Below, piece after piece: positions 32,406 through 33,927 of a stretch of DNA of 64,000 nt. Each line of letters starts with the position of its first letter. Position 1 is the stretch's first letter. Below the pieces are notes generated by a model that made no database searches, was not told the origin of the DNA, and saw only the letters and a program-made list of their open reading frames with translations. The translations under genes were made by a program, and so were the position numbers. Location of the stretch: positions 2,617,001-2,681,000 of the forward strand of contig NZ_CP064356.1 in assembly GCF_018141545.1 (NCBI RefSeq), written 5' to 3'. Source of the stretch: Miltoncostaea oceani. Its GTDB lineage: Bacteria > Actinomycetota > Thermoleophilia > Miltoncostaeales > Miltoncostaeaceae.

Positions 32406-33292
32406 GCGCCCCGGCCGCCGCGCGGCCGGTGGCCGCCGAGGGCTACGCCCGCATCCGCGCGGGCGCCCCGGTCGCGGTGCGCGGCACGGCCGCGTTGATC
32501 TGGGTGGAGGGGCCGGACGCCGCGGGCTTCCTGCAGGGCCTCGTCAGCAACGACGTCGCGGCCCTCGCGCCGGGTGGCGCGTGCGCGGCGCTCTTCCTCG
32601 ACGCCAAGGGCCACGTGCAGGTCGAGATGCGCGTCCACCGCGACGCCGGCGACGCCTTCACGATCGTCGTGCCGGGCGACCGGGCGGACGTCCTGATGGG
32701 CCTCCTCGAGCGGTACCACTTCTCCGAGGACCTGGAGCTGCTGGGGCCCGAGCCGGTCGAGATCGTGACGCTGGCGGGCGGGGCCCGCACCCCGGGGGCC
32801 CTCACGGTGCCGGGGCCGCTGCCCGGGACGGTTGACGTGGTCGCCGACGACCCCGTCGCGGCGATCGCGGCCGCCGGCGCCGAGGAGGTGACCGCGGACG
32901 CCCTCGAGCTCGCCCGCGTCGCCGCGGGCGTCCCGAGGGTCGGGGTGGACACCGGCGAGACGACGCTCGTGCAGGAGGCGGCCCTGGAGGGCGCCGCCGT
33001 CTCCTTCGACAAGGGCTGCTACCTGGGGCAGGAGACGGTCGCCCGCCTCCAGTTCCGCGGCAGGGCGAACCGGCGGCTGCGGGGCCTGGCCCTGGAGGGC
33101 GCCCCGCCGGAGCCGGGCGCGCTCGTCACGCACGACGGACGCGAGGTCGGCCGCCTGACCAGCGTCGCCGTCACACCGGACCTCGGTCCGATCGGTCTGG
33201 CCATCGTCCGCCGCGAGGTCGAGGAGGGTGCGGTCGTGAACGTCGGCGACGCCTCCGCGCGGGTGGTGGCGCTCCCCTTCCCGCCGCGGTGA
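32402..33292 (+). CDS. ygfZ: Folate-binding YgfZ/GcvT-like protein for Fe-S repair
   Basis: A 296-residue GcvT-fold protein. The diagnostic K-G-C-Y-x-G-Q-E motif is present as FDKGCYLGQETVARLQFRG, with the conserved Cys. The N-terminus has ALIWVEGPDAAGFLQGLVSNDV, which binds folate. YgfZ/IBA57 proteins use tetrahydrofolate to maintain certain Fe-S enzymes such as MiaB. GTG start in a GTGA overlap with the LON gene, and the same overlap links it to the next small gene. Confidence 0.93.
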   Translation: MSAPAAARPVAAEGYARIRAGAPVAVRGTAALIWVEGPDAAGFLQGLVSNDVAALAPGGACAALFLDAKGHVQVEMRVHRDAGDAFTIVVPGDRADVLMGLLERYHFSEDLELLGPEPVEIVTLAGGARTPGALTVPGPLPGTVDVVADDPVAAIAAAGAEEVTADALELARVAAGVPRVGVDTGETTLVQEAALEGAAVSFDKGCYLGQETVARLQFRGRANRRLRGLALEGAPPEPGALVTHDGREVGRLTSVAVTPDLGPIGLAIVRREVEEGAVVNVGDASARVVALPFPPR

Positions 33293-33573
33293 GCACCGAG
33301 GGATCGCCGAACGCGCTCGGCGACCTGCTGGGGCCGGTGGGCGCCGCCGCGCTCGGGGAGGCGACGCGCGCCCTCGCCCGGACCACGGACGCCGGCTCGG
33401 CCGCCCTGCGGGTGGCGGGGTGGACCGCCGCCGACTGGGCGTTCCGGTTCGAACTCCCCGGAGTCGGCCACCACATCGTCGTGCACGTGCCGCACGACGG
33501 CGGGACCGTGACGGTCCGCGAGGCCGGGCCGGGCCCCGATCCCCTCGCCCCCGGGGACATGCGCCGCCCCTGA
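33289..33573 (+). CDS. Small protein of unknown function, cotranscribed with ygfZ
   Basis: A 94-residue soluble protein. Its GTG overlaps the ygfZ stop by four bases. Helical first third (GPVGAAALGEATRALARTT), then a beta-rich middle with FRFELPGVGHHIVVHVPHDG, whose paired His and Asp could bind metal. No family recognised. Conservation of the trio would point to a role beside YgfZ. Confidence 0.7.
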   Translation: MSTEGSPNALGDLLGPVGAAALGEATRALARTTDAGSAALRVAGWTAADWAFRFELPGVGHHIVVHVPHDGGTVTVREAGPGPDPLAPGDMRRP

Positions 33574-33598: not shown

Positions 33599-33639
33599 TT
33601 GCCGTCCGGCGCCGGTGGCACTATACGAACATGCGTTCG
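33599..33639 (+). promoter_or_regulatory. Promoter with overlapping LexA (SOS) box
   Basis: TTGCCG (33599-33604) and TATACG (33622-33627) are 17 bases apart. CGAACATGCGTTCG (33626-33639) matches the Bacillus/actinobacterial LexA consensus CGAAC-N4-GTTCG with perfect arms, and overlaps both the -10 and the start codon of the next gene. LexA bound here would block transcription until DNA damage. No other such box was seen in the window. Confidence 0.75.
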
Positions 33640-33927
33640 ACCACCTCATCCCAGGGGCAGTTGATCCTCTTCCCGGGGGCGCCCACCCCGGCCACGCCGA
33701 CCGCCCGGCCGCGTCGCGCGGGCCCCGCGGAGCGCAAGGCCGCCCAGCTCGACCGCATGGCCGCCGAGGCCGAGCGGGAGGTCTCGGAGGCCTGGCGCGC
33801 CGGCGACATGCCCGGCGCCCGCGCCGCCCATGACCGCGCCCGTGGCGCGCGCCGGGCGGCCCAGCTGCTGCGGGCGGGGCCCGCCGGGGTGGCCGAGGTC
33901 ATCGGCGGCCACCACGAGGCGGCGTGA
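33631..33927 (+). CDS. Small, probably SOS-induced protein with a possible clamp-binding motif
   Basis: A 98-residue protein of no family known to me. The N-terminus contains QLILF (residues 10-14), which resembles the beta sliding-clamp pentapeptide QL[SD]LF, followed by a Pro/Ala linker and two charged helices (AERKAAQLDRMAAEAEREVS; ARAAHDRARGARRAAQLL). Its promoter overlaps a LexA box. The start is not secure: the ATG at 33631 lies only three bases past the -10, so the true mRNA start may fall inside it; an in-frame TTG at 33661 would remove the clamp-like motif. A damage-induced regulator of replication or repair is one reading; function is unproven. Confidence 0.68.
   Translation: MRSTTSSQGQLILFPGAPTPATPTARPRRAGPAERKAAQLDRMAAEAEREVSEAWRAGDMPGARAAHDRARGARRAAQLLRAGPAGVAEVIGGHHEAA

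Follow-up and report, generated by a model that had tools for sequence, protein, structure and literature searches.

SOS-induced proteins that bind the sliding clamp are mostly polymerases or relatives of polymerases, while the SOS division inhibitors SulA, YneA, DivS and ChiZ are small, SOS-induced and lineage-specific proteins. We know of no described small, dedicated clamp-docking protein that controls access to the clamp after DNA damage, and our literature search turned up no known SOS-induced small protein that binds the clamp. The gene analyzed here encodes a 98-residue protein and lies in a 64-kb window, i.e., the whole stretch of DNA that was studied (C1:2617001-2681000 of a 4.54 Mb genome).

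The 98-residue protein shares single features with several described systems. As in ImuB, LexA control and a non-catalytic nature are combined with clamp docking via a QLxLx motif (QLPLWG in ImuB), although LexA control and docking are predictions for the protein described here. However, ImuB is a relative of Y-family polymerases, whereas the 98-residue protein is a helical hairpin that lacks any polymerase, RecA-NT or ImuB-C region, and the same genome has an ImuB-like gene besides. The promoter resembles those of mycobacterial genes that are doubly controlled by LexA and PafBC, such as recA, in that a LexA box is paired with a putative promoter of the PafBC (RecA-NDp) type. It differs in that the element reads CGTCCG-N10-YANNNT instead of TGTCGG/TGTCAG-N10-TANNNT, and in that the start codon falls within the LexA box. 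Small size, restriction to one lineage and predicted SOS induction recall SulA, YneA, DivS and ChiZ, but a clamp-type motif is found in place of a membrane or LysM segment. Lastly, the role we propose, in which an SOS product sits on the clamp and controls which polymerases reach it, is similar to the checkpoint function of E. coli UmuD2C (PMC4045847), while sequence and fold are unrelated.

A conserved gene that starts within a LexA box

The gene occupies positions 33631-33927 of the forward strand, and its ATG lies within a LexA box. The first-pass annotation had described a 98-residue protein, and the 98-codon reading frame stands. Homologues were searched in 61 relatives and then in 399 genomes of the class Thermoleophilia. 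Of 41 genomes sampled from a Miltoncostaeaceae-like family, 36 encode the protein, while outside this family the 399-genome search gave just two weak matches, both within long open reading frames and neither convincing. A scan of 84,980 species genomes with the single protein returned no relatives, and phage and plasmid collections gave no match. The same kind of scan with a five-sequence alignment matched four named MAGs of Thermoleophilia/Miltoncostaeales, and by these named matches the host family is Miltoncostaeaceae-like, within the order Miltoncostaeales.

Long spurious reading frames are abundant in GC-rich DNA, and the locus might be read as one of these next to a chance LexA-like palindrome. 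This reading is already refuted by conservation: homologues occur in the 36 family genomes, the LexA box is found at every homologue inspected, and pairwise dN/dS values of 0.05-0.36, far below 1, indicate that the gene is real and that the protein is under purifying selection. The gene is absent from the two genomes of genus g8 (at least 90% complete), which retain the ImuB-like protein, and is therefore dispensable. A neighboring ygfZ, upstream of the gene, is common only to genera g1, g3 and g6, and the surroundings otherwise differ. Since the neighborhood is kept in few genera only, the gene and its promoter travel together. Between ygfZ and the gene, positions 33289-33573 of the window hold a 94-residue reading frame of no known family with 78-83% identity within the genus. 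A relative consisting of the hairpin only, without the Q-L-x-L tail or a nearby LexA box, was found in another genome (L200, G013:C90, about 1686-1964).

The LexA box, CGAACATGCGTTCG, spans positions 33626-33639 and overlaps the start of both transcription and translation. It had been noted from the sequence as an exact LexA site, and is the only exact CGAAC-N4-GTTCG in the window. In the whole genome there are 12 exact matches, compared with none for the reversed-pattern control. Exact or near-exact boxes adjoin dinB, the imuB-like gene, dnaE2, lexA, recA, a helicase and a radical SAM enzyme. As dinB, imuB-like, dnaE2, lexA and recA are among these genes, CGAAC-N4-GTTCG can be taken as the working LexA signature of the host. 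The lexA gene itself (L045), whose product has LexA_DNA_bind and Peptidase_S24 domains, is preceded by GGAACACCTGTTCG. A search of the homologues for a conserved box, suggested in the first-pass annotation, located one at the gene start in 30 of 30 homologues inspected base by base, with at most one mismatch and despite differing neighbor genes. Both the position of the box and its conservation thus strongly support the earlier suggestion of SOS control, and make it very likely that the gene is switched on by DNA damage.

The start codon, previously regarded as uncertain, is better supported than was supposed. Two registers of the box occur among the homologues, CGAACATGCGTTCG with the ATG at offset 5 and CGAACACATGTTCG with the ATG at offset 7, and the start codon lies inside the operator in both. 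In a tally of 32 homologues the ATG is at offset 5 in 25 and at offset 7 in four (29 of 32 within the box), and the start lies further downstream in three. The ATG of homologue L017 follows a Shine-Dalgarno sequence and is placed just ahead of the motif discussed below, and the starts of L040 and L085 were located further downstream. Since most homologues retain an ATG embedded in the box, a start at 33631 is supported, and the alternative TTG at 33661 was dropped.

Further small-protein loci with LexA boxes were observed in the window's genome. A protein of about 103-114 residues with hydrophobic segments is encoded divergently from mraZ (G000:C1:1388819-1388855; L044, L159; also L164, L216, L217), and its gene has a pair of LexA boxes overlapped by a PafBC-like element. 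Both protein and element are conserved in G003 and in genus g2, and this protein is a candidate SOS division inhibitor. In addition, two related small helical proteins (WIAxRxGRxxAxAGxxxxIERLEH) adjoin LexA boxes, L051 on the minus and L053 on the plus strand.

A PafBC-like promoter element

A second conserved element, missed in the first-pass annotation, lies directly upstream of the box at 33604-33624 and has the form GTCCG-N10-YANNNT. Its upstream half is CGTCCG (33603-33608), and its downstream half is the -10-like hexamer CACTAT (33619-33624), which starts exactly 10 bases after GTCCG and ends 6 nt ahead of the ATG. Among the 32 tallied homologues, 30 have GTCCG and the other two ATCCG, and the distance to YANNNT is exactly 10 bases in all 32, one of which has G in place of the Y. 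In the common register the hexamer ends 6-7 nt before the ATG. This is the layout of leaderless actinobacterial genes, and the arrangement in the window fits a leaderless transcript. A promoter with 17-base spacing (TTGCCG-17-TATACG) had been proposed earlier, but the parts that are conserved are (C)GTCCG, the 10 bases and YANNNT; the -35 sequence TTGCCG was dropped as it is not conserved across homologues.

The PafBC motif of Mycobacterium tuberculosis is TGTCGG-N10-TA-N3-T (PMC8151990), and the same promoter type is known as RecA-NDp (PMC8223512). Compared with TGTCRG-N10-TA-N3-T, the spacing of the element described here is identical, while all members of the family have C (CGTCCG) where the core has R. 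The host genome encodes a natural PafBC fusion with two WYL, WCX and HTH_PafC domains, a fusion also known in Arthrobacter (PMC6789036). When the ATG is not required, the element is enriched about 2-fold genome-wide over the reversed control (38 vs 22; 29 vs 11). For the stricter leaderless form, CGTCCG-N10-TANNNT-N6-ATG, 26 occurrences were counted in 42 family genomes vs one for the reversed control. The genes downstream of leaderless sites include ruvA, uracil-DNA glycosylase and thymidine kinase, sites of a looser form precede two UvrD-type helicases, and a DEAD-type helicase is also found behind PafBC-like sites. Some of the sites stand ahead of other genes, among them an acyl carrier protein and several unknowns. 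We propose the CGTCCG form as the PafBC element of this family, an assignment that is not yet established. As the LexA box, the conserved PafBC-like element and the PafBC fusion occur together, the gene is probably under double damage control by LexA and a PafBC-type activator.

In genus g10 (L226, L228, L230 and others), a perfect leaderless CGTCCG-N10-TANNNT-N6-ATG site opens a 9-codon reading frame, MDAHGASGR, and a 65-residue helix-turn-helix-like protein (MANHLTPDEMANAIGM...) follows behind the same site.

A clamp-type motif on a disordered tail

Searches of Pfam, NCBIfam and PDB sequences gave no family match for the 98-residue protein, in line with the earlier statement that it belongs to no known family. 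Weak PHROG, Pfam and NCBIfam matches to single members were judged to be chance matches of a short helical protein. No RecA-like (ImuA') or Y-family (ImuB) domain was found by the Pfam, NCBIfam and PDB searches, nor was a membrane segment or LysM domain indicated by a hydrophobic segment in the sequence or by a family match. The protein is thus a new lineage-specific family with, judged from its sequence features, an unusually clear double-damage promoter. AlphaFold2 predicts a disordered N-terminal tail (pLDDT 52-65) followed by a confident helical hairpin. Helix 1 comprises residues 32-57 (33724-33801; block pLDDT above 90), and helix 2 comprises residues 60-97 (33808-33921), with a conserved LRAGPxGV segment that reaches past the hairpin. 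Invariant residues of the hairpin in the alignment are A37, A70, A73, A77, L80, G83 and P84. Foldseek found nothing below E 0.001 among solved structures; the matches, at E 0.78 or more, were generic helical hairpins and were set aside. Since the fold search was null, the hairpin offers no functional clue.

The tail carries QLILF at residues 10-14 (33658-33672), as the first-pass annotation had noted, and its conserved positions match the QL[SD]LF clamp consensus. In an alignment of 20 divergent sequences Q10 and L13 are invariant and position 11 is L or M, while the tail is otherwise variable in sequence and length, with the Q of the motif at residue 4 to 28. Q-[LM]-x-L is found in every homologue read, but the full QxxLF in 7 of 11 genera only: QLILF/QLLLF (g1), QMALF/QMTLF (g2), QLILF (g3), QLTLF/QLCLF (g4), QLLLF (g5), QMRLF (g6) and QLTLF (g7). 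The fifth residue is V, I, A or D in four genera, which have QLHLD (g9), QLTLV/QLRLI/QLALI (g10), QLRLV (g11) and QLRLA (g12). DnaE1 keeps QxxLF (QESLF or QGNLF) in the genomes read of g9, g10 and g11 (g12 was left out), so a changed clamp does not obviously explain the loss of Phe, and the motif might be weakened or serve another purpose in those genera. Some g10 ImuB-like proteins read QMTLV or QLALV where their clamp motif lies, which makes a weaker variant of the motif plausible. The same type of motif occurs in DnaE1 (QESLF), DinB (QLELPL) and DnaE2 (QLALPI) of the lineage, all of which would be expected on the clamp. The earlier suggestion of clamp docking therefore gains from the invariant Q and L within an otherwise variable tail and from the motifs of these polymerases and of the two repair proteins named below, but is weakened by the loss of the terminal Phe in four genera. 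We consider it probable that the window protein binds the beta clamp via QLILF.

Apparent clamp-binding tails were also seen in other repair proteins (L048, L160, L234), with QMSLF (window genome) or QLSLF (G003) in a damage-regulated helicase and QLGLF at the end of a uracil-DNA glycosylase of the family.

Possible roles after DNA damage

We somewhat favor the explanation that this is a lineage-specific damage-response gene whose LexA- and PafBC-controlled product docks on the clamp. In the undamaged cell, LexA would bind the box, which overlies both the transcription start and the start codon, and so block the leaderless transcript. After damage LexA would be cleaved, and a PafBC-type activator at CGTCCG-N10-YANNNT would add positive control. 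The product would be a soluble protein of about 10 kDa, in which the Q-L-x-L-F of the flexible N-terminal tail would fit into the beta clamp's hydrophobic cleft while the Ala/Arg-rich hairpin with its conserved LRAGPxGV end would bind a second partner or itself. Its most likely role would be to occupy the clamp once damage has occurred and thereby alter access to it, either by competing with the replicative polymerase or as an adaptor for the error-prone DnaE2/ImuB-like machinery. The anatomy, a docking tail and a hairpin with an LRAGPxGV end past helix 1, would suit a competitor as well as an adaptor.

As an adaptor, the protein would be the third component of a mutasome of DnaE2 and the inactive Y-family ImuB-like protein, which it would bring to the clamp, with the hairpin bound to either of the two. 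The ImuB-like protein occurs in 41 of 42 family genomes and its gene has a LexA box, in the window's genus its known clamp-motif site has a degenerate sequence (QLTAI/QLTAV), no imuA' adjoins the imuB locus, and docking of ImuB on the clamp is essential for mycobacterial mutagenesis (PMC10421592). However, the gene shows no synteny to imuB or dnaE2, DnaE2 already has QLALPI, and the ImuB-like protein of genus g8 occurs without the 98-residue protein. Read against PMC11791113, the host ImuB-like protein has a short sequence with a RecA-NT-like tail and lacks an ImuB-C region, and together with DnaE2 it resembles the DnaE2-iPolY-RecA type. As DnaE2B-iPolY-RecA systems exist without ImuA (PMC12926913), the mutasome has no gap to fill. 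The idea that the protein substitutes for a clamp motif missing in ImuB was weakened by QLTLV/QMTLV at the ImuB site in other genera, and no strict co-variation was seen when the fifth motif residue of the 98-residue protein was compared with that of ImuB. We regard the adaptor role as possible but rather doubtful. A third DnaE-type polymerase was observed on the 816-kb contig (G000:C2:6578-11077), in a 1670-residue frame where the matches are split by unmatched stretches.

The other sharper form of the favored explanation, to which we give the same low credence, is that the hairpin dimerizes and each of the two QLxLF tails fills one cleft of the same clamp ring, so that the replicative polymerase is pushed off and replication pauses once damage has occurred. 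In agreement with this, 7 of 11 genera have the canonical QxxLF, the protein is small and without a recognizable enzymatic domain, and the modeled two-helix hairpin has a shape that would permit dimerization, but the drift of the fifth residue speaks against a high-affinity blocker in four genera. Many SOS genes are division inhibitors, and QLxL might instead bind a partner other than the clamp (RecA, LexA or a protease adaptor), or the protein might be a basic DNA-binding or division-control factor. Pointing in this direction are the Arg-rich sequence and the finding that four genera have lost Phe although QxxLF is retained in the DnaE1 proteins read. Against it, Q, position 2 and L4 correspond exactly to the positions of the clamp consensus, Phe is kept in seven genera, and the hydrophobic membrane segment or LysM domain of actinobacterial SOS division inhibitors is lacking. 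Such a non-clamp function appears unlikely.

Returning to the clamp-docking explanation, we see in the 98-residue protein a good candidate for a new factor that assists or slows damaged replication forks, and we hypothesize a role as a checkpoint or repair factor. More speculative, and in our view quite improbable, is a clamp ligand of a new class, non-enzymatic and induced by damage under joint LexA and PafBC control, in which a dimeric hairpin with two QLxLF tails in both clefts of one clamp would gate replication and translesion polymerases. At the level of regulation, CGTCCG-N10-TANNNT suggests that the PafBC damage response extends to Thermoleophilia with a shifted motif. This may help where the mycobacterial motif went unfound, e.g., in Streptomyces (PMC9380542). 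If true, a small dedicated clamp-docking protein kept across a family would imply a previously undescribed control of clamp access after DNA damage.
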